This document shows, one piece after another, positions 1 through 54,900 of a stretch of 64,000 bases of DNA. Positions within the stretch are counted from its first letter, which is position 1; each line of letters starts with the position of its first letter. The notes beneath the pieces are model-generated. The model was not told where the DNA came from, did no database searches, and saw only the letters and a list, made by a program, of their open reading frames with translations. This DNA comes from a virus. The position numbers and the translations under genes were made by a program. The DNA lies in IMG/VR virus record IMGVR_UViG_3300020572_000005, positions 1 to 64,000 of that record; one strand, given 5' to 3'.

Positions 1-1070
1 GTGGCACTTACTGCTCCGCCGGTTAATACATTACCACCTGTGATATTGCCAGTAGAACTCACAGTACCACCTGTAGCAACATTGCCAAATGTACCTGTTC
101 CGGTGGCACTTACTGTGCCTGACGTGGCAACATTGCCAGCAACAACCGTATTTGAAAGTGTAATGCCTTCTGCATTTGACGTGATAGTCTGTGTACCAAT
201 GTAGATACTGTTGCCAGACAAATATAAATCTTTCCACAATGCACCAGCAGCACCCAGGTTATAAGTTGCAGTTGTAGTTGGAACCAAGTTGCTGTTGACT
301 GTTCCAGTGACTGTTAAGATGTTGCCAACTGTTACGTTGGCAACCACTGAAACATTGTTGGCCAATGCCACGGTGACACTACTTACGTTGCCAGTAACTG
401 ATGCCACTGCAACAGTGATTTGATCAGTTGTTCCGTCAAAGTCAATTGTGTCGCCACCGTTGACTGCTTCTGTAGTTGTGCCGTCAGAGATGGCAAAAGA
501 TGAGTTGCCCAATGTGCTTAAAACATACGCTTTGGTGGCAGCATCGGTGTTGGCAACCGGATCAGCAACGTTGCTGATCACCACATTACCAAAACTCACA
601 ATAGAGTTGGCTGCCACTGTCAAGTTGGCAATGTTACTTTGACCAGCAACAGTTAATCCAGCAGTTACATTGGCATTTAATGTGGTAAGATTGGCATATG
701 CTGACACTACAATTGTAGTTTCTGTCTCAGGGGTGCTGGTAAATGCTGTTATAAAGGACTGTGCGCTTTCGTCCCAGACAAAAGCAATGTTGTTGGCAGT
801 ACCACGTTGACCAATGAAACCAATGTCCACTGCTGGAGAACCAGTCTGTGTGGAAGCCAGTAAAATAACCGGATCTTCAATGGTGGTAATGTTGGTGTCA
901 ATTGCAGTGGTATTGCCTTGAACAGTCAAGTTTCCTGTGACAGTAAGATTTGACCCGTAGGTCAGATTGTTTGCGATTTTTGCGGCACTGATCGAATAAT
1001 CAACTAGTTTCGAACTGGCAACAATGGTTGCATCTGTAATTTGATTATTCTTAATTCTGGTAACAGCCAT
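1..1070 (-). CDS. Fibre-like virion protein (3' end outside window)
   Basis: An open frame runs from ATG at 1070 to the left edge without a stop (356 codons seen), so the C-terminus is missing. The product is rich in Thr, Val, Asn and Gly, with many short repeats of the type 'T(V)TGN(L/I)TVxGN', as in phage fibres with stacked beta-strands. It contains the segment 'YNLGAAGALWKDLYLSGN', which I associate with trimeric tail-fibre shafts of T4-like aquatic phages. An AAGGAA Shine-Dalgarno lies 7 nt upstream. The start 'MAVTRIKNNQITDATIVASS' resembles a fibre attachment segment. It is the last visible member of a run of minus-strand virion genes. The exact role (long fibre, whisker or decoration) cannot be told from sequence. 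Confidence 0.8.
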   Translation of the reverse strand, partial: MAVTRIKNNQITDATIVASSKLVDYSISAAKIANNLTYGSNLTVTGNLTVQGNTTAIDTNITTIEDPVILLASTQTGSPAVDIGFIGQRGTANNIAFVWDESAQSFITAFTSTPETETTIVVSAYANLTTLNANVTAGLTVAGQSNIANLTVAANSIVSFGNVVISNVADPVANTDAATKAYVLSTLGNSSFAISDGTTTEAVNGGDTIDFDGTTDQITVAVASVTGNVSSVTVALANNVSVVANVTVGNILTVTGTVNSNLVPTTTATYNLGAAGALWKDLYLSGNSIYIGTQTITSNAEGITLSNTVVAGNVATSGTVSATGTGTFGNVATGGTVSSTGNITGGNVLTGGAVSA

Positions 1071-1099
1071 GACATTCCTTGTTTTTAACTTCAAAAATC

Positions 1100-1117
1100 G
1101 CTAACACCCGTGTTAGC
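1100..1117 (-). promoter_or_regulatory. 5'-terminal hairpin of a late transcript
   Basis: A perfect 8-bp inverted repeat (GCTAACAC / GTGTTAGC) with a 2-nt centre. It begins 1 nt after the +1 predicted from the TATAAATT box at 1124-1131. It could protect the 5' end of the mRNA, or be an operator. Confidence 0.5.
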
Positions 1118-1123
1118 AATCTA

Positions 1124-1131
1124 AATTTATA
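1124..1131 (-). promoter_or_regulatory. T4-type late promoter, TATAAATT
   Basis: Seven of eight bases match the T4 late consensus TATAAATA. It lies 53 nt upstream of the fibre gene starting at 1070, and the leader carries a hairpin and an AAGGAA Shine-Dalgarno. The rest of the 203-nt gap between the genes (1071-1273) shows no gene. Confidence 0.5.
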
Positions 1132-1273
1132 TGTTATTTACCAAAGTCGTGGCGATAAACACTGCTCAGTTTAATAAACAGTGTGAAATAAATTTGTTAC
1201 CGGGGAGTTTGTTGTGTTTTTATTTACCAAACTGGTAAAAACATTTAGCAGAATTGCAACATTTTAGTGCAGA

Positions 1274-2593: not shown

Positions 2594-5094
2594 TAGTTAC
2601 TCGCTACGTTTAGTGATAGGCCGGTCACTGACTGACCTGATGTGAGAGCAACTCTCACATAGATTTCGTTTGTTGCTGTGCTGGAACTTGAAACAGTTCC
2701 AAAAGTACAAGTTTTGTTTGTACTTGCTGTGTTTACGTTGGGAACAACTACACCACCCAGGGCGCAACCATCTGACCCGTTACCTGGACTATTAACACCA
2801 GGATAACCAGCGCCGGCATAGGCAGTGGTCATCGCAATCCAGCCATTGGCACCAGAACTGGAATCAATCACTGATCCTGGCAATGCCACCCATATACCAG
2901 CCACATTGCCAGCATAGGTAATGTCAAATTTTGACACATTGGTTCGTATAAATTTGATTGTAAAGTACTGTGTTCCTGTGCGGCCAGCACTTAGGTTAGG
3001 ACCTGCAGGCAAGTATCCTGTTGAATAATTGGTTTGATCATGTTTGAGTACACCTTGTGACCCTGAGCCTACCACAGTGGCATCGTATGTTTCCAGTGTT
3101 GAACTTTGACTGTTAAAGTTTGCTTCGCTGCCTGTGTACGCAGGAGTGTTTCCGGAGCCAGGATTGATGATACGAACAGCATTGCCTGACCCTGTGCCAA
3201 CCCCAGTGACAATAACATTGCCTTCGTCGATGGCAGTGGCAGAGCCTGATTTATACAATGCAATATTGCCCAGAGCTGAGGTCAATGTCAACGTGCCAGT
3301 TGAGTAACTGTTGTTGACACTGATGCTGGGACCAGTTGAACTGCCGCCAAATCCTGTGGTTATGTTTGCAGTGGTTGAGAATGATGCACTTGCAAACGAT
3401 CCAAGAACGTTACTGCCAATGTTGCTGGCGCTGTAGTTAACTGATGCAGGTGCCGCAAAACTTCCGGCGGCTGAACCGGACGCCAAGGTGTTTGATGTTG
3501 GGTATGTGTTGCCACTGACATTGGCCACATTGGCAGAAATTGCAAATTGTGTGGCATTGGTATAGTGCGGAATAGTACTGCTATACAATAAAGTTGGTGA
3601 CCCTGGCGGAGTCATTGTGCCAGCACTGAAACTGGGAGTAGCAGGACTAGAATTGTCATAGTACCAAACAGGTGTGTTGGTATTGCCTGTGGCAGAATCT
3701 GCTATGTAAACTTCGTTCCAACCAGCTGGTGCCGCGGTTCCTGACATAGACGATGAGAACACATACCAGAATCCTGCGGCAATGTTTGCATTGGCGTTGC
3801 GATAGTCAAAGTTATTGGTGATCACCAGGTTGCCGCCGTAGGTGCCATTGGCTGTGGGGCTCGCACCGGCGTTCAAGGTCACATTGCCCACATTGGCACC
3901 ATTGCGAACCGCAGTGATTGTACCGGTATCTCCAGGGCCAACAGTGCTGATAGTGTTGGTAGCATAGGTAGCAACACGCAGAATCGTGGTAACAGTGGCA
4001 CCAGCGGCCACTGCTTTGTTGGCAGCAGGTGTGTTATCTACCTGTGTGATATTGGCCATTCTGTATGTGGCCAAACCAGAAAGTGACAGTGTTTGTCCGC
4101 CCGGAAAATTAGCAGGAGATGGTGGTACCAATTTTCCCAGCACTGTGTTTAGCTGTGTGATACCATCAGTCACTGTGGTAGTGGTGGTTAAAGTAACAGC
4201 ATTACTAACAAGGTTGCCCAATGTGTTGGTACCCATTGGGATAAGATTGCCCACTACGCCAATGTCAGCTGCCGATGACCATGTCAAATTGCCGGAACCG
4301 TTGGTGCTTAATACATAATTTGCAGTGCCGCCTGTGATTGTGATATTGGCATTTGAGCCCAGTGACAATATTCCAGATGCTGCCGATATAGCGTTGCCAG
4401 ATAACGTTACTCCATTGGCAACAAGATTACCAGTGGCGTTGACCGTGCCATCTACGTTTGCACCAGTGCTGGTGACTACAAACACATTGGCAGTGCCTGC
4501 TACACTTGTAGCAACATTAGAATTTGCGTAGACTTTTACATTGCTGTTGCCGTTTTGAATTGATGTGGCATCAATGCCGGTTAATTGACTACCGTTGCCA
4601 ATGAAGAAGTTACCAGTGATATTACCTGTGGCACTCACTGTGCCTGTGACATCTGCACCTGAGCCTGTGACCACAAACACATTGGCCGTGCCGCCCACAC
4701 TTGTGGCCACATTTGCATTGGCATATACTTTTACATTGCTATTGCCATTCTGTATGCTTGTGGCGTCTATGCCGGTTAGTTGACTGCCGTTGCCAATGAA
4801 GAAATTAGCAGTGATGTTGCCGGTAGCACTCATTACACCTGCGGTGTTGACATTTCCGCCTGTGATGTTGCCAACTGCGCTTACAGTACTAGACGAAAAA
4901 AGATTGTTGGCTATCGCATTGCCGACAATATCAAGTGCTTGAACAGGAGTTGCGTTGTTAACACCAACTCTGGAATTTACAACGTCAACAAAGACGACCG
5001 GGGTGTCGGCTACTGTGTCAGAAATTGCCAGATTAGAACCATCTCTTTCGAGAGTGTTCTTCAACATCTGTCCTGCAATTTTGCTAATAGCCAT
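2593..5094 (-). CDS. Large fibre-like virion protein with tandem repeats
   Basis: An 833-residue protein. The N-terminus ('MAISKIAGQMLKNTLERDG') resembles attachment heads of fibres in T4-like aquatic phages. Residues 89-218 are two near-identical 65-residue repeats with 'FFIGNGSQLTGIDATSIQNG'. The middle is low-complexity beta shaft. The C-terminal 150 residues are more complex ('YFTIKFIRTNVSKFDITYAG', 'GYPGVNSPGNGSDGCALGG') and end in an Asn/Ser-rich tail, a plausible receptor-facing tip. A leader with AAGGGA precedes the ATG. The gene is the first of the downstream run of minus-strand fibre genes and is coupled by TAATG to the next one. Confidence 0.8.
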   Translation of the reverse strand: MAISKIAGQMLKNTLERDGSNLAISDTVADTPVVFVDVVNSRVGVNNATPVQALDIVGNAIANNLFSSSTVSAVGNITGGNVNTAGVMSATGNITANFFIGNGSQLTGIDATSIQNGNSNVKVYANANVATSVGGTANVFVVTGSGADVTGTVSATGNITGNFFIGNGSQLTGIDATSIQNGNSNVKVYANSNVATSVAGTANVFVVTSTGANVDGTVNATGNLVANGVTLSGNAISAASGILSLGSNANITITGGTANYVLSTNGSGNLTWSSAADIGVVGNLIPMGTNTLGNLVSNAVTLTTTTTVTDGITQLNTVLGKLVPPSPANFPGGQTLSLSGLATYRMANITQVDNTPAANKAVAAGATVTTILRVATYATNTISTVGPGDTGTITAVRNGANVGNVTLNAGASPTANGTYGGNLVITNNFDYRNANANIAAGFWYVFSSSMSGTAAPAGWNEVYIADSATGNTNTPVWYYDNSSPATPSFSAGTMTPPGSPTLLYSSTIPHYTNATQFAISANVANVSGNTYPTSNTLASGSAAGSFAAPASVNYSASNIGSNVLGSFASASFSTTANITTGFGGSSTGPSISVNNSYSTGTLTLTSALGNIALYKSGSATAIDEGNVIVTGVGTGSGNAVRIINPGSGNTPAYTGSEANFNSQSSTLETYDATVVGSGSQGVLKHDQTNYSTGYLPAGPNLSAGRTGTQYFTIKFIRTNVSKFDITYAGNVAGIWVALPGSVIDSSSGANGWIAMTTAYAGAGYPGVNSPGNGSDGCALGGVVVPNVNTASTNKTCTFGTVSSSSTATNEIYVRVALTSGQSVTGLSLNVASN
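4441..4830 (-). repeat. Two 195-bp in-frame tandem repeats
   Basis: Units at 4636-4830 and 4441-4635 encode two 65-residue copies of the fibre shaft. The copies differ mainly at synonymous and conservative positions, so the duplication is old enough to have diverged but is still recognisable at DNA level. It could mediate fibre-length variation by recombination. Confidence 0.8.
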
Positions 5095-7122: not shown

Positions 7123-7932
7123 TTAGCTTGTGTAGTTCTCTACAATTGCTAGATCCAATGCACCTGTTGCCAATTGCTCTGAACCGTTTGTGCCCCAGGT
7201 GTCAATTTCAGCACCAGACTTGGCCGTTGTGCCTTCGTCACTGAAGAAGTTGTCAACCAATGTTACGTTGTCAACAACCAGAGTTGGATTCCAAACGTCA
7301 CCGGTGTTGGCTCCGCCGCCTGCACAACCGCCGGCAAAGTTCTGCAAGAACTTGTTGGTCAACTTGCTGACTGTTGTTTCAGTTGAGTCGTTGCTGAAAT
7401 AACTGATGCTCATGTTGCCGGCTGTAGGAGTTACATCATTTTGCAACACACATGTGCCAACTTCTTGCGCTGTGCCGGTGGTGCTGCCTGCAGAGGCTAC
7501 TGTAGGAGTAAAAATAGTACCAATGCCGTAGCCGGCTGGAGCACCCATACTAGCCCATTCAGTGTCACCAACTACAGCAATACGCAAGGCCACACCAACC
7601 ACGGCATCAGCTGGATCAATTGCTGTGGTTGTTGCAACCATAAACTTGCGTGAACCTTTTTGGCGAATAATCAATCCAGGTGTTTGACCACTGTAGCTGT
7701 TGGTAATGTTTACTTCGCACTTGACGATTGGATAAGCTGCGCTGGCAACGGTTGTAGGTTGTACACCGCCAACTACACCAAGATATTCTGTGCCAGTCCA
7801 AGTACTACTTGGATACACCGGTGCTGTTAAACTTGTTAATGCATTGAAACCAATATCAACTCCAGGGTTTGCACCGGTGCTAGAGTTATAACTAGCTTCG
7901 GTAATTTTTTTAATTTTAAGAGGACGTCCCAT
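7123..7932 (-). CDS. Virion structural protein (unassigned)
   Basis: A 269-residue protein beginning 'MGRPLKIKKITEASYNSS', followed by a beta-rich body ('IVKCEVNITNSYSGQTPGLI', 'RQKGSRKFMVATTTAIDPAD') and a C-terminus with a Cys/Gly patch ('FAGGCAGGGANTGDVW'). It has its own late-type promoter (8026-8033), a structured leader, an AAGGAG Shine-Dalgarno and its own terminator. This suggests strong, separately controlled late expression, as for an abundant head or tail protein. I do not recognise a T4 counterpart. A decoration or tail-surface protein is the best guess. Confidence 0.7.
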   Translation of the reverse strand: MGRPLKIKKITEASYNSSTGANPGVDIGFNALTSLTAPVYPSSTWTGTEYLGVVGGVQPTTVASAAYPIVKCEVNITNSYSGQTPGLIIRQKGSRKFMVATTTAIDPADAVVGVALRIAVVGDTEWASMGAPAGYGIGTIFTPTVASAGSTTGTAQEVGTCVLQNDVTPTAGNMSISYFSNDSTETTVSKLTNKFLQNFAGGCAGGGANTGDVWNPTLVVDNVTLVDNFFSDEGTTAKSGAEIDTWGTNGSEQLATGALDLAIVENYTS

Positions 7933-8003
7933 TTTGTTTTCTCCTTAAAGAAGTCCGATGTGGGTTCTAGCCACTACGCGGTAGGGTTTAGTCTTCCGCA
8001 TAA

Positions 8004-8019
8004 AACGCCGTATTGCGTT
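8004..8019 (-). promoter_or_regulatory. 5'-terminal hairpin of the 7932 transcript
   Basis: AACGC / GCGTT with a 6-nt loop, beginning at predicted +2 of the transcript from the CATAAATA box. A second small stem (CTAC-CGC-GTAG) follows before the AAGGAG Shine-Dalgarno. Confidence 0.45.
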
Positions 8020-8025
8020 GACAAG

Positions 8026-8033
8026 TATTTATG
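8026..8033 (-). promoter_or_regulatory. T4-type late promoter, CATAAATA
   Basis: Seven of eight bases match TATAAATA. Predicted +1 is at 8020, giving an 88-nt leader before the ATG at 7932. No gene is seen in 7933-8079. Confidence 0.5.
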
Positions 8034-9439: not shown

Positions 9440-10636
9440 TTAAGAGAAAGACAAGTTTTGAACAGCAATCTCGCCAACATAGTCAGCGGCGTTACCGAAA
9501 GAACTTGCAGTGTTTGTCAACTCTACGAAGCCATAACGAGTCATAAATGACACGACTGGTTCGAATGTTGATGGGTCAAGAACCACACCACTACTCATTA
9601 ACGGAATATAAGGGCAATAGAATGCGGCAGCATCTGCCTCACTAGTACCTTTGTAGCCAACCAATACGTTAGCAGTGTCGCTAGCATAGGAGTTAACAAA
9701 TACACGCATAGCACCGTTCAATGTACCAACAAACTTGGTGTTTGTAGGTGCTTCGAATGTGCCTTCTGTTGTGCGAGCAAACGCTGAAGTAGTTGCACTT
9801 TGCAACACTGTCAATGCGGCTGGCGAAACAACAGCCCAGTTACCTGCGCCACGACGTGTACGTTGGGCGATCAAGTTAGCTGTACGGTTGATCAACACTG
9901 CCAAAGCAGCGTGTTCGTCACCCACAAACGTAGCAGTACCGGAAACGGTAGCTTGGTTGTATGTGTACTCAACAGCAGCCAATGTGCTCAAACTCAAGAG
10001 AATCTCTTGGTCAATCTCAGCAGTGATCTCTTGTGCAAGAGCTGCCATGATTTCTGCTTCAACGTCAATACCGTGCATGGCTTGTGCGTCTTGTGCAGAT
10101 TCAAATGTCCAACGTGCTTGCAACTTACGTGTCTTGGCTTCAACTGCTTGCTTCAAGATTTGAACGGAAATTTGCTTACCGCCGTTACCTTCAAGCGTTG
10201 CTGTGTTAGCGCCTGTGTAAGTTGATGTTGATGTTGTATCTTTGCCAACTGTAGAGTATGCAGTGGCAATAGTGAATGGACTCAATGCTTCTTGACCAGC
10301 TGTAACACTAGTAGCGGCTGCTGAGTTGTCAGTCAAGTTACCAGCGTAACGCACACGTAGAGTGTGGATCTGACCAACTGGACCTGTCATTGGCTGAACG
10401 CCTACCAACTCGTTAGCAATAACTGTTGGCATTACACGACGGATAACTGGTAGAATCACACGGTTTAATGTAGCGATGTTGCCAGATGCTGTGGAACCAG
10501 CACTTGCGTTTTCTTTCAAGTACTTACGTGTATTCTCAAGAATAACGTTCATACTAGTGCGCTTAGAACCGTTTAGACCTTCGAGCAATGCTTCCTTGGT
10601 CTCGTCCCAGCGACCTTCTAATAATTGTTGTGACAT
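9440..10636 (-). CDS. 23: Major capsid protein, gp23-like
   Basis: A 398-residue protein that forms the capsid hexamers. The diagnostic stretch 'VGVQPMTGPVGQIHTLRVRY' near residue 80 is the gp23 family hallmark. The first ~50 residues would be removed by the gp21 protease, as in T4. It is shorter than T4 gp23 (521 residues), as is usual for aquatic relatives. AGGAG lies 9 nt upstream. Last gene of the head block, followed by a strong terminator. No gp24-type vertex paralogue is seen in the window. Confidence 0.97.
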   Translation of the reverse strand: MSQQLLEGRWDETKEALLEGLNGSKRTSMNVILENTRKYLKENASAGSTASGNIATLNRVILPVIRRVMPTVIANELVGVQPMTGPVGQIHTLRVRYAGNLTDNSAAATSVTAGQEALSPFTIATAYSTVGKDTTSTSTYTGANTATLEGNGGKQISVQILKQAVEAKTRKLQARWTFESAQDAQAMHGIDVEAEIMAALAQEITAEIDQEILLSLSTLAAVEYTYNQATVSGTATFVGDEHAALAVLINRTANLIAQRTRRGAGNWAVVSPAALTVLQSATTSAFARTTEGTFEAPTNTKFVGTLNGAMRVFVNSYASDTANVLVGYKGTSEADAAAFYCPYIPLMSSGVVLDPSTFEPVVSFMTRYGFVELTNTASSFGNAADYVGEIAVQNLSFS

Positions 10637-12411: not shown

Positions 12412-13188
12412 TTATACTGGAGATTTAGTGTTTACGCCTGCAGCCTGTGTTGTCACTGGCTTGGGTGCGGCACCTTGCTTGGGACTGGTTGTCATGCCCA
12501 TATCTTTTACAGATGGAGCAGGACGACCTTGTGCAGTGTCACCAGTCATCTTAACTGGGGAACCTTGCATACCTTTGGCACCTGAGTTCTGTGGCACTAC
12601 ACTTTTGGTGTTGGCACCGTCGTCGCCCATTTTAGCAGGAGCTACTTTGGACAAACTTACAGCTTCCATCATGCCCATTTCTGGCATAATTTCAGATGTG
12701 TCATCCATTTCAATAGCGTCGCCGCCAGCATCCATGTCAAATTCTTGTTCTTCTTCGCCACCTTCGCCGCCCATCATGGCTTCAAATTCAGCCATTAGTT
12801 CGTCCAGCTTGTCTTCTAGGTCAACCACGCGATCTTCAATATCGCCTTCACCTGCATCGTGGTCACCTTCCATGTCCTTTGTCAGATCATCGCCGTCTTT
12901 TTCTGCTTCGTCGTCAAACTCAGCATCCATGTCGTCTTCTTCGTTCATGCCTTTTTCTTCAGTTTCTACGGAACGGATCAAACTGTCGGCAGCGTCGCCG
13001 TCGCCGTCGTTCATTTCCATTGGATCCATGCCTTCGTCAACTTCTTCAGTGGCTAGTTCTTCTTCTTCCATTAGACTTTCGTAGATTTCGCGTGATTTCT
13101 CAACAACGATATCATGAAAAAGTTCTTTAGCTTTTGCTTCTTCATCGTTAATTACGAATTCAATTAACTGTTCAAATTTTGATGTCAT
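12412..13188 (-). CDS. Acidic prohead core protein, gp68-position
   Basis: A 258-residue protein. The N-terminus ('KFEQLIEFVINDEEAKAKEL') resembles the short helical start of T4 gp67/gp68-type core proteins. Residues ~40-165 are extremely Asp/Glu-rich. The C-terminal third is Pro/Lys/Thr-rich and positively charged, so the molecule is strongly bipolar. By position (portal, small gene, this gene, gp21) it corresponds to T4 gene 68. It probably acts inside the prohead. GGAGG precedes the ATG, and a late-type box with a hairpin leader lies upstream. Confidence 0.75.
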   Translation of the reverse strand: MTSKFEQLIEFVINDEEAKAKELFHDIVVEKSREIYESLMEEEELATEEVDEGMDPMEMNDGDGDAADSLIRSVETEEKGMNEEDDMDAEFDDEAEKDGDDLTKDMEGDHDAGEGDIEDRVVDLEDKLDELMAEFEAMMGGEGGEEEQEFDMDAGGDAIEMDDTSEIMPEMGMMEAVSLSKVAPAKMGDDGANTKSVVPQNSGAKGMQGSPVKMTGDTAQGRPAPSVKDMGMTTSPKQGAAPKPVTTQAAGVNTKSPV

Positions 13189-13217: not shown

Positions 13218-13245
13218 GTTTACTACTTACACAAAAGCAGTAAAC
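13218..13245 (-). promoter_or_regulatory. 5'-terminal hairpin of the core-protein transcript
   Basis: GTTTACT / AGTAAAC, 7 bp with a 14-nt loop, starting at predicted +2 from the box at 13252-13259. Confidence 0.5.
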
Positions 13246-13251
13246 TGAGCA

Positions 13252-13259
13252 TATTTAGA
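13252..13259 (-). promoter_or_regulatory. Late-type promoter TCTAAATA
   Basis: Six of eight bases match TATAAATA. Predicted +1 is at 13246. The leader has a hairpin and a GGAGG Shine-Dalgarno. The 108-nt gap between genes (13189-13296) holds no other feature. Confidence 0.45.
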
Positions 13260-13523: not shown

Positions 13524-13531
13524 TATTTATG
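13524..13531 (-). promoter_or_regulatory. Late-type box CATAAATA 5 nt before ATG
   Basis: Seven of eight bases match the T4 late consensus. The box contains the TAA stop of the portal gene (13527-13529). Expected +1 coincides with the A of the ATG at 13518. Confidence 0.45.
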
Positions 13532-15362
13532 ATGTTGGCGGTGGTGGAACTGCTGTGGGTGCTGTTCCTGCACCTGCTGGTGCACCTGGCAAGGCACCTG
13601 CATCGGGTGCGCCTGCAGGTGGCATAGCAGCCAGTTCTTCACCAGTGTTGATATCTGCTTCCATACCTGCTGGAGTAATACCAATGCTACGTAGGTCTTG
13701 TCCTTGTGTAGTACTTAACTCAGGCTGATCACGTTCTTCACGCCAGAGTTTTTCGTTTTCCACAATCTCTTCTTGACTCAATCCCAAGTAACGTTCCATC
13801 AAGAAACGCTTGCTCATGTAGGGCAATTGCTCTAGTGCACCAAATGTGCTCACACGACTGGTGTCCATTTCTGCTTGACGGTAACTGGCAAAGTTCTGTG
13901 GTGGACCTAGTACAATATCAAAAATGCTGTTGTCGATGTTAAAACCACGCCATTTCATGAACATCTTGAATTCATCATCAAGTTTTTGCATGATTAAACG
14001 CTGTAAACGTTCGCAATACTGGTTGAATCTGTACTCTTGTATCAGTGCTGTGCCTACTTTTCCGTCATTCATTGCACGGTCCGAGTCGTCAGGACCGGTG
14101 GGCAAATAGCTTGATGGCACACGCAGGCCACGGGCCATTTTGTTGTTAAAGTACTTTAAATCGTCAATTTCGCCCAGCCCTGTGCCGCCAGGTAAGGTGT
14201 CTACACTGCTGCCACGTCCGTCTGCTGTTTGTGGGAAAAAGTAATCTTCGTTGATGCTAAGTGGATTGTAAGACGCATCCATCAAGTTTGCACCACCACC
14301 ATTCACAGTGGGAATTCTACGCTGGTGCATTTCGTTTTTAACACGTTCCACAAAGGCCATGGCCATGTGGCTGGGCATGTTGCCCACGTCAATTTTAAAC
14401 ACTCTACGTTCTGGAGCACGGCTCACACGATAGATCAGCACAGAGTCTTCCAGAAGTTCTTTTTGTTTGTAAACTTTGAAAATGTTTTCTAAGATACTTT
14501 GTCCAAATGGCCAGAAGTAATCCAAGCCTTCATTCAAACTCAAATGCACCACGTGCTTGGCATCAATACAGGTTTCATTCATGGCCTGGGCAAATCTACT
14601 GTTGCCCACAGTGCCGCCAGCACCACCACCTGATCCGCCATTGGGACTTGAGTAGTTGGTTTGTCCTGTACTACCTGTTGAACGACTCACATAGTAGTCG
14701 CTGGTGGTTTTTTGTGCAATACTTAGATTTTGAAAGTTGGGATTGATGTCACGGATAATGTACTGTTCTGGACGCTTGCCTTCTGATTCGTTCACAATCA
14801 CACGACTGACTTTGACCATGTCAACCCAGTACATTTCAAATGTTTCTGGGTCACGCACAAACAACTGATCGCCATACTTGATGGTGTTACGGAACAGTTT
14901 GAACATGCGCTGATCCAACTTGTTCAGTTTGGTCCATTGCTGTAACTGCTTTTTAATGATTTCTACTTCGTGATCAGTGGGAGTATCTTTGAATGTGATA
15001 TCAAAGGGTGTGTTGTTATCTTCGTTGTTCTGTGTGCTGAATTCTGCAATGATGTCCAAACAGGCATTGACTTCACTGTCAAGATCCATGTTTTCATACT
15101 GATTATAACGTTCAATACGATTGGGGTGTCCAGAATAAACTTCAGGCAGACGGCTGGCATAGTTACGAAATGCAAAATCATTGCCTGTTCCGGCGTTGCC
15201 AGTGTAGCCATTTTGGCGATCGTATCCCGGCAGACCAGCCTGATTACGCCCAGAGATAGGACTCAGTTGGCCATTGGCGTCACCTGCGGCCACTTTGAAA
15301 TACTTGAGCCAGCCTCTTTTGCGACCTGGGCCAGATTCGCTACCAACTGTTGATTCAGCCAT
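13527..15362 (-). CDS. 20: Portal vertex protein, gp20-like
   Basis: A 611-residue protein that forms the dodecameric DNA gate of the head. Family landmarks: 'RAPERRVFKIDVGNMPSHMA' near residue 315, 'FFPQTADGRGSSVDTLPGG' near 375, and 'RVPSSYLPTG' near 415. These are the regions targeted by classic T4-type g20 diversity surveys. N- and C-terminal ends are low-complexity (Gly/Asn and Pro/Ala). The start overlaps the end of the GIY-YIG endonuclease by 8 nt, so translation of the portal may now depend on that inserted gene. Confidence 0.97.
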   Translation of the reverse strand: MAESTVGSESGPGRKRGWLKYFKVAAGDANGQLSPISGRNQAGLPGYDRQNGYTGNAGTGNDFAFRNYASRLPEVYSGHPNRIERYNQYENMDLDSEVNACLDIIAEFSTQNNEDNNTPFDITFKDTPTDHEVEIIKKQLQQWTKLNKLDQRMFKLFRNTIKYGDQLFVRDPETFEMYWVDMVKVSRVIVNESEGKRPEQYIIRDINPNFQNLSIAQKTTSDYYVSRSTGSTGQTNYSSPNGGSGGGAGGTVGNSRFAQAMNETCIDAKHVVHLSLNEGLDYFWPFGQSILENIFKVYKQKELLEDSVLIYRVSRAPERRVFKIDVGNMPSHMAMAFVERVKNEMHQRRIPTVNGGGANLMDASYNPLSINEDYFFPQTADGRGSSVDTLPGGTGLGEIDDLKYFNNKMARGLRVPSSYLPTGPDDSDRAMNDGKVGTALIQEYRFNQYCERLQRLIMQKLDDEFKMFMKWRGFNIDNSIFDIVLGPPQNFASYRQAEMDTSRVSTFGALEQLPYMSKRFLMERYLGLSQEEIVENEKLWREERDQPELSTTQGQDLRSIGITPAGMEADINTGEELAAMPPAGAPDAGALPGAPAGAGTAPTAVPPPPTS

Positions 15363-51900: not shown

Positions 51901-54900
51901 TTGACGATACCAGTCAAGTCAACTTGTATCAACAATTCATTGGCACCAAAGGAACAATATTAAGTGCAGAAATATTCACCGGTGCTAATCTTGCCAAAGA
52001 AATTGCTGACTATCAAATTTACGAAAACTGGGCTGTACTACGCGGCACATATGGAGCAAACGCAAATCGCAGCTATGTTGAGTTGAGATTAAACGAAGCA
52101 CTGTTACAAAGTGACCCAGCCACTGTGCAGATAATTGAGCCAGGCGAATCAAGTTTGGCAAATCAAACTGTGCTGTTAAATGACGTATGGCGCGAAAGTT
52201 ATAAATTAACTTCTCCAGACTTTTTAACAACTACCACAACTCAGATCACTGACACAGCATTGCCAAGCGCAGGCTATGTCAACATCAACGACGTTGATAT
52301 AACAGTATTCTCCTTGGATGATCCAAGCACTATTGCCGCAAACTTAGACACCATCGGTAACGGCACTAAAATATGGGTGGCCAAAACCAACAGCTACGAT
52401 TGGAATATATATCGTGCTACTCAAGTGCCAGGTAGAATTACTCGTGTGACCGACAACCTTGATGGCACTAGTTTAGTAGCATTTACTCAAGTACATAAAT
52501 TATCTCTAGGCGATATCCTAATTGTTCGATTCTTCAACGACGCCTTTAACGGCGTATATCGAGTACTGACTACCCCTACCCCAACCACGCTCACTGTGGC
52601 CTACACATTCCCAAATGGCAATCAAACTACCATAACTGGATCAGGGATAGGATTTTATCTTGACACCATGCGTGTCGCCCAGGCCAGTGACATTGGCACA
52701 TTGTCCTTTGCCAACGACTTGATTCCAGGTGCAATGGCCTGGGTTGATAACAACGGTTCTGGACTATGGGAAGTACTTGAAAAACAAAATGTTTTTGCCG
52801 CCGGCTATGCACTTGAGCCAAGCAATCTAGTGCTTGACAGTGGGTATGGCACAAGTATTGCCCAAGCATACGAAAATATTGCAGCATTGGTTGGCGCACC
52901 ATTGTACGATGGTGGTGTTGGTGCAATTTACCCATACCTGCGTGGCCAGGGTAATTTATATGAAGCAAGTCCATTAATGCAACTAGGAACTGCTGACACA
53001 GTGGGATATGGCAGTGCATTGGCAATTGGTTACCAAGACTGGGCCATTGTGGGTGCCCCTCAAAGTTATAGTGGCGTCGGTTATGTAGCGATACTCTACC
53101 GAGCACCTGCAAGTAATACATTCTTGCAAACGCAACTGTTGATTGCACCTGATTACCTAGCAAGTGCCGGCAGTTTTGGTTCGTCAGTGGCCATCAGCCG
53201 AGATGAACGTTGGGCGTATGTTGGCGCTCCTGCACAAGATGCAGTGTATGCATATGGTCGCGTTGATTTAGAAATTCAAGAAGTAACGTATATCGGCGAT
53301 AGCGTTACTACATCATTTAATTACAGCAATAATTTAGTGTTTGATCTAGCACACCCAGCACAGATCACTGTATTGCTTAATAACTCTATACAGCAGTACG
53401 GAGTTGACTACGATCTAAGCGCGACCTCGGTAATATTTAACACTGCTCCGCTTCAAGATTTACCAATTGTGATAACACGAAATATGTTATCACAATTGGA
53501 TGCCGAAACATATTATAATGTTGAACAAGACTCAACAGACGGTTCCGGTATACTTGCAACATTTACAGTTGAGAGAGTTCGCGGAGACTATGAAGTTACA
53601 ATTACCGGTCCAGGCGTATTCTACCAAATTGGAGACACACTTACCATTGACGCGGCCACCATTGGCGGAGGCACGTCGCCTGCAAATGATTTAGTCATTA
53701 CTATAACTGCTATTGAAGGCAGCGGAGCAATCACTGGATTTACATATTCTGGTTCAGGCGTTTCAAACACATCTGTATTTGATTTAAGTACAACGCTGTA
53801 CACTGCTACAAATCTTAATTCTTTCAGTGTTCGTGTCAACGGCGTACTACAACGTCCTTATATTGATTATACATTTGCAGGAACTACATTAACTTTTGTT
53901 ACATTACCAGCGGCTGGCACCAAAATTGAGGTTGAAACTGGTTCATATTTTGCATACGTTGAAACTATGACTGGTCCGGCAGGTTCTGGATTTGGAACAA
54001 GTGTAGCAACAGCAACAGATGGACAGCAAATAGTAATTGGTGCGCCAACAGATGTAAACAATGCGTTGATCAATGGCAGCACATATGTGTACGATCGCAG
54101 TGTCGCAAGATATCAAGTTGGTGTTGGTGAAACAGCAGTGACAACTTTCGCACTGCCCGCTGGGTTCAACACTCCAGTATCTGTGACGCTCAATAATGCG
54201 TTCTTAACTGATGCTGATCAAATCTTGGGCGGACAATTTACAGTGTCTGGCAGTGATGTAATATTAGAAGATAATGTAACATTGGCAGTGGGCGACATAA
54301 TTGAAGTTGAAAGCAATATTTTCCAGTTGGTGCAGAAGATTACAATTAACAAGCCATTTGATCAAGCAAGTTTTGGCAGTTCGGTTGACCTGTGCTCAAA
54401 TAATTGCAGTATCTATGTTGGTGCACCAACTGATGGCACAGTGTTACCAGGTGCTGGCAGTGTACAACGCAGTGTAAATCAATCTCGTGTGTACGGAGTA
54501 ATATCATCTCTAATTCCAAATCCTGTGTTGACAGGTGGCGATACACTGCGTATTGACAACTATGAAATCGTAATTCCCAACAGCCCCAACAACACTGTAG
54601 CCGGGGTTGTTGACGCCATTAACACTGCCAACGAAGGTGTTGGCATTCCCAATGTACGAGCTTCTGCTCCGGGCGATTTATTCTTTGTAGGCGACGGGGT
54701 TGTAAAAACATATGACATTGGTGTAACTTACTCACAATACACCACTTACAATCCGTTGGTATATGTTGACACTGTAGTGCAAATTCTCAATGTTGACTAT
54801 ACGTACAACAACAGCACTGGTATTATTAGTTTTATTACTGCTCCTGCTGAACAATCTAGCATACGTGTGGTGCAAGGAATATTGACACTGAATGTTATAA

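Follow-up and report, generated by a model that had tools for sequence, protein, structure and literature searches.

The gene starting at position 1070 of an uncultured T4-like phage is preceded by a stem-loop, and comparison of related leaders shows that its pairing is conserved as RNA, at a near-fixed distance from a predicted late promoter. The anatomy modelled for this leader, a transcript beginning at about 1129, followed by the hairpin and then by an open ribosome-binding stretch, is very probably correct. With slightly less than even confidence, the conserved stem-loop is read here as an ordinary structural element of the 5' untranslated leader of a late message, one that raises yield; its function taken separately, the raising of message yield, is a tentative proposal.

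The window, the whole 64-kb stretch of DNA analysed, is the first part of a 114,198-base virus record, and its source is a distant, uncultured T4-like phage without a match in a DNA search against named phages. The phage group is widely found, since 599 of 600 matched stretches in a capsid-protein scan, among the matches listed, belong to relatives. The product of the gene at 1070 would be a repetitive, structural-type, tail-fibre-like protein, judging from its composition and neighbours; it gave no match in Pfam, one weak match to an entry of unknown function in PHROGs, and two matches in a protein search, both to unannotated records. A check for the late factors gp55, gp33 and gp45, covering 20 ORFs of L003-L005, which are part of the ORFs of the record, returned no sigma-factor or clamp match in PHROGs. 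Elsewhere in the window, a 15 bp perfect inverted repeat lies at 53463-53499, within an ORF of 4841 residues. The features bearing on the leader and its setting are as follows.

1..1070, minus strand: gene downstream of the hairpin leader, start at 1070, truncated by the end of the record
1076..1080, minus strand: AAGGA, likely ribosome-binding site from a reading of the sequence, outside the hairpin
1095..1122, minus strand: leader hairpin (+8 to +35), 12 bp stem counting G-U pairs, loop CGGG, perfect core at 1100-1117
1124..1131, minus strand: TATAAATT, the box of the sequence-only reading, probably not a promoter
1135..1142, minus strand: GGTAAATA, late-type promoter box, invariant in 16/16 distinct leaders, predicted +1 at the 6th base after it, about 1129
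1160..1183, minus strand: CACTG...CAGTG inverted repeat, flanked by the upstream gene on one side and the promoter on the other
1221..1228, minus strand: second GGTAAATA box, 86 nt further upstream
9440-10636: gp23-type capsid gene
13527-15362: portal gene

To collect relatives, viral contigs were queried with residues 1-157 of the 1070 product, and the best 80 loci of 316 were used. The close set consists of the 24 top-listed loci (L086-L109) minus L097, whose upstream region is cut off, leaving 23 loci with a leader that collapse to 16 distinct leaders, one of them identical to that of the window. Further copies of close-set leaders are found in L134 and L162, and the leaders of the remaining 54 loci were sorted by eye, copies included.

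This comparison changes the promoter reading. The sequence-only reading had taken TATAAATT as the box and placed +1 at 1118, with the stem beginning 1 nt after it. Among the distinct leaders, TATAAATT is intact in 3/16 and GGTAAATA in 16/16, and a second upstream box is present in 7/16 relatives, as GGTAAATA in five and GATAAATA in two. In a set of 1829 distinct start contexts, a spacing of exactly 5 nt between TAAATA and ATG occurs 50 times and one of 4 nt 21 times; TAAGTA takes the 5-nt position 8 times, and TAAATT is never found there (0 occurrences, compared with an average of 1.8 at other offsets). The +1 was defined as the 6th base after TAAATA, calibrated by the leaderless starts together with the -13/-6 geometry of T4 late promoters. 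The distance from this predicted +1 to ATG peaks sharply at 0, with 86 of 564 unique promoter-start pairs from 261 sequences, falling to 5 pairs at distance 1 and 13 at distance 2, with a broad peak at about 12-30. Because GGTAAATA is invariant and TAAATT has no start peak, the likely +1 moves from 1118 to about 1129, a start that carries the TAAATA core at -11 to -6 as T4-type late promoters do. A late-type promoter upstream of 1070 is thus borne out, in the form of GGTAAATA; TATAAATT was rejected as the promoter and that call is probably wrong, and with it goes the claim of a stem 1 nt after +1, which depended on a box that the relatives do not back.

Two further observations concern the region upstream. 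A CACGA or CACGG motif, separated by a short spacer from GGTAAATA, makes up an arrangement (window 1135-1151, minus strand) that extends beyond the usual late promoter and occurs in close relatives, and also in a number of distant loci, among them L114, L116, L130, L139 and L146. Both arms of the CACTG...CAGTG repeat at 1160-1183 are present in 13/16 aligned close relatives, and this repeat possibly marks the 3' end of the upstream transcript.

The perfect inverted repeat described by the sequence-only reading exists, as GCTAACAC-GG-GTGTTAGC at 1100-1117 on the minus strand, in front of the ATG at 1070; counting G-U pairs makes the stem longer than was stated, and 24 nt separate the end of the hairpin from the ATG. 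Taken alone, the repeat is mildly unusual. Perfect stems of such length number 21 in the 64-kb window, of which 6 are intergenic. Folded from 1129, the leader reaches a z of -2.29 against dinucleotide shuffles (6/200 equally good), and folded from 1118 a z of -1.64 (13/200 equally good). Compared with Rfam, the 1070 leader matches no family at the gathering threshold, freshwater-2 (RF02980) included.

Conservation is what carries the hairpin beyond chance. Each of the 16 distinct leaders folds into a hairpin with 8-14 bp in its stem; the loop centre lies between +21 and +24.5, and the stem ends on its 3' side 24-33 nt before ATG. The stem sequence varies greatly, and its position relative to the promoter is near-constant. 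The loop is partly conserved, reading CGGG, UGGU, UGGG, AUGGG and similar, with GG in 11/16. The compensatory changes that the sequence-only reading proposed to look for in relatives were found, and in the six rows of group B they exceed shuffled controls: 98.1% of cells are paired and 4/9 pairs are changed on both sides, with paired cells, both-side changes and covariation score each matched in 8/500 shuffles, and the number of further pair types matched in 125/500. When the partner is shifted by 1-3 columns, the paired share drops to 9-65%. Group A, also of six rows and including the leader of the window, is 90.1% paired, with 3/12 pairs changed on both sides and 27-52% paired in the slid versions; it fails the shuffle control, its covariation being reached by 99/500 and its percent paired by 171/500, so group A alone is no proof. 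In one alignment, a bulged base of L095 was left unplaced by MAFFT, and an alignment with L096 and L099 out of register was excluded from counting. When 91 sources were searched with a covariance model built on the group A hairpin, the 12 strong hits were the six training sequences, their copies and the window, and the group B orthologs were missed; since the model recovers its own training set and copies, it says little about copies elsewhere. An exact-pattern scan of viral contigs hit 18 contigs, all already among the relatives from the protein search.

These comparisons bear directly on several other explanations. A chance hairpin in an AT-rich leader is very unlikely: a perfect stem of at least 8 bp does arise in 3.65% of 2000 mononucleotide shuffles of 1071-1273, and group A covariation does not beat its shuffles, but a stem at a near-fixed position in every distinct leader, with compensatory changes in group B, argues against it. 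A DNA palindrome bound by a transcription regulator would suit the perfect 8 bp symmetry of the window copy, yet this symmetry is lost in relatives, where G-U accounts for 38/163 stem pairs over the 16 leaders and one U-G pair is fixed in 6/6 rows of group B. Because frequent G-U keeps RNA pairing and breaks DNA symmetry, selection would act on the sense-strand RNA, and the DNA operator was rejected on its G-U content as highly improbable. The same low standing falls to an intrinsic terminator or attenuator. The stem of the window is followed by GATTTTTG, as such a signal would have it, but a pattern scan of 950-1400 found none at the hairpin, its sole hit lying at 950-965 on the plus strand, and in none of the six group B relatives is the stem followed by a run of U; this candidate was rejected as well.

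The sequence-only reading had placed the stem at the very 5' end of the transcript, where it would block 5'-end-dependent decay; the enzymes concerned would be RppH and 5'-tethered RNase E. Both enzymes depend on single-stranded 5' ends, and purified B. subtilis RppH requires two unpaired bases and prefers three or more (PMC3997798). If +1 were 1118, the first 2-4 bases would be paired with probability near 1, but that start rests on the poorly conserved TATAAATT and on TAAATT, which has no start-signal peak. From about 1129, the main stem of the window starts at +8, and in 9/15 other leaders it starts at +12 to +14; over all 16 the range is +8 to +14, with 7-13 bases preceding it and weak outer pairs from +2 to +5 in nine, so that the stem does not lie within the first few bases of the predicted 5' end. 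From the GGTAAATA start, the probability that +1 to +3 are unpaired is 0.39-0.99 in 14/16 leaders (five at 0.39-0.60). Among the controls, boxes within genes have a mean of 0.58 and short leaders one of 0.73; four of the 14, at 0.39-0.43, fall below both means. The two remaining leaders, L107 and L108, have a value of 0.06 and thus favour blocking, their first three bases being paired at 0.94 even from this start. Because the main stem begins at +8 to +14, blocking of the 5' end is not predicted by the anatomy for most leaders; the conserved hairpin does not appear, in these folds, to cap the 5' end in most of them, and a block to 5'-end-dependent decay is not well supported for the 1070 gene. 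As an explanation of the conserved hairpin it is unlikely. An operator, in which a phage or host protein would bind the loop and regulate translation by analogy with T4 gp43 on its own mRNA, is given the same low probability. In operators of the gp43 type, the hairpin overlaps or adjoins the ribosome-binding site. The 1070 hairpin, ending 24-33 nt before ATG, does not overlap it, GG is absent from 5/16 loops, and a structural-type gene is not an obvious autoregulator, against which stand the partly conserved loop on a variable stem and the precedent of a hairpin operator in T4 gene 43 mRNA (PMC3014915).

The favoured reading, an ordinary leader structure that raises yield, would work as follows. 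The late mRNA would start at about 1129 from the GGTAAATA box, and its leader would comprise 7-13 unpaired or weakly paired bases, the hairpin, and an open ribosome-binding stretch of 24-33 nt. The stem may shield the leader from endonuclease entry and keep the ribosome-binding stretch free, rather than serving mainly as a 5'-end cap.

Among the 54 more distant loci, 35 have short leaders of 13-28 nt without a comparable hairpin, 12 have leaders of a UAGCC type, 2 have other hairpins, and 5 have no TAAATA within 130 nt; the hairpin is therefore optional for the gene at large, 35/54 loci being free of it. The UAGCC leaders (L112, L114, L121, L125, L132, L138, L146-L149, L153 and L157; just before base 3001) represent a second leader type of the same gene, with a stem from +1 to +3 and, in some, a second hairpin. 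In the 8 of 12 loci scanned against Rfam, no match was found at the leader, the hit in L132 being a separate freshwater-2 element. For 14 UAGCC leaders, the probability that +1 to +3 are unpaired is 0.00-0.29.

The sequence-only reading had also pointed to the same layout upstream of 7932 and 13188, where the following features were identified.

7930..8020, minus strand: freshwater-2 RNA (RF02980), leader of gene 7123-7932, 68.9 bits against a gathering threshold of 49.9
8026..8033, minus strand: CATAAATA, late promoter box, with RF02980 position 1 at the 6th base after it
13218..13245, minus strand: hairpin from +2 after TCTAAATA (TAAATA box, 13252-13259), upstream of gene 12412-13188
13224-13231, minus strand: nearer TGTAAGTA box, overlapping the 3' arm of the 13218-13245 hairpin

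At 7932 the similar arrangement holds, the leader being a freshwater-2 RNA above its gathering threshold and beginning at a predicted late +1. The product of the 7932 gene belongs to no known family and gave no match in a protein search of named phages, and a full-text literature search for freshwater-2 found nothing relevant. The element was present in 13/13 chosen loci, mostly picked for relatives of 7932, and in 3/19 in another scan. Over 16 loci and the window, RF02980 position 1 falls exactly at the calibrated +1 in 11/17 and within one base in 15/17, a count that rests on Rfam hits and not on leaders picked by pattern; of the remaining two, L084 lacks a box and the other begins 4 bases after the +1. 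An alignment of 14 rows shows 98.6% of the cells of helix 1 paired, with a switch between G-C and A-U (8:6); helix 2 is 100% paired and has one position that takes three pair types, the third helix being out of register and left out of pair use. Paired cells and covariation exceed all 500 shuffles, and the pairs changed on both sides, one in each helix, number 2, below the shuffle mean. The probability that +1 to +3 are unpaired is 0.00-0.21 in 17 freshwater-2 leaders, and that for +1 to +2 ranges from 0.05 to 0.29 in 15 leaders, with 0.78 and 0.90 in the other two, although these leaders were chosen by a 5'-stem pattern near +1 and the pairing there is partly selection. On these modelled values, the 5'-block mechanism would suit freshwater-2 and the UAGCC leaders better than the 1070 leader, and it is a fair hypothesis for 7932.

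The case of 13188 is ambiguous. A hairpin does follow a TAAATA box there, as claimed, but among 55 of 58 relatives (3 are cut off), the far box, giving a leader length of 53-75, occurs in 5/55 and a nearer TAAATA or TAAGTA in 54/55, the last of the 55 having its box slightly nearer still.

Whether such stems are a common device was examined in 47 clusters whose leaders measure 38-130 nt and have a good box, scoring a first stem starting from +1 to +3 with dG of -4 or lower. A 5'-terminal stem was found in 13/47 leader clusters, compared with 18/94 and 73/351 boxes inside genes, 6/47 upstream windows, and 20 shuffles that gave 8.2 +/- 3.2 of 47 and 13 at most. Moving the start of the window 3, 6, 9 or 12 bases later gave 11-12/47 clusters, which indicates that +1 is not special; the rule that late transcripts begin with a stem was rejected, and a genome-wide habit is not established. 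Leaders are nevertheless more structured than other sequence, with a first stem of -4 or lower in 32/47 leader clusters against 15/47 upstream and 47/94 inside genes, and 26% of 90 leader clusters have a cluster-median z below -2, compared with 18% upstream and 11% of 150 coding controls. A further stem was seen at record position 105380 (minus strand; L005), where ACTAAATA is followed by a strong stem from +1, UCGACAG...CUGUUGA. Taken as a whole, the sequence-only interpretation is supported in its promoter type, its conserved leader hairpin and the 7932 site, and is not supported in its TATAAATT box.

Many late genes of this phage group look leaderless by their sequence. ATG lies exactly at the predicted late +1 of 7 of 38 TAAATA boxes outside ORFs.

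8067, plus strand: leaderless-looking start, window
13524, minus strand: leaderless-looking start, window
18217, minus strand: leaderless-looking start, window
19304, plus strand: leaderless-looking start, window
42055, plus strand: leaderless-looking start, window
93871, minus strand: leaderless-looking start, record
111901, minus strand: leaderless-looking start, record

A broader and doubtful reading is that late messages are sorted by their 5' ends into leaderless ones, ones with a bare leader of about 12-30 nt, and ones with a long structured leader that would set lifetime or yield, the structured class comprising a few structural-type genes with freshwater-2, the UAGCC type or the 1070 hairpin. 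If this sorting were true, freshwater-2 would form the 5' end of a late message of the phage rather than a riboswitch of the host.

These results provide a concrete predicted 5' end for late transcripts of a widely found, uncultured phage group, along with a corrected promoter reading, and they tie an Rfam element, freshwater-2, to the predicted first bases of a phage mRNA. If structured leaders set message lifetime, they would constitute a layer of late-gene control that does not appear in the available portion of a review of T4 (PMC3014915).

Several known systems resemble this leader in part. The T4 gene 43 operator (PMC3014915) is likewise a short hairpin upstream of a phage gene, but the 1070 hairpin is clear of the ribosome-binding site and has no known binding protein. 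The 5'-terminal mRNA-stabilising stem-loops of the ompA and papA type, named in titles in the reference list of PMC3997798, likewise have a stem-loop in the leader that precedes an open ribosome-binding site, whereas the main stem at 1070 lies at +8 to +14 and not within the first few bases. The T4 late promoter, TATAAATA at -13 to -6, and the variant of Aeromonas phage Aeh1, CTAAATA, as given in PMC1524935, have the TAAATA core and the -6/+1 spacing in common with the promoters described here, in which the two bases before TAAATA are instead most often CA, GA, AC, GG, TA, GC or AA. Finally, the 1070 hairpin does not match RF02980 at the gathering threshold, but it shares with freshwater-2, in the same phage, the placement of a structured leader directly after a TAAATA late promoter.
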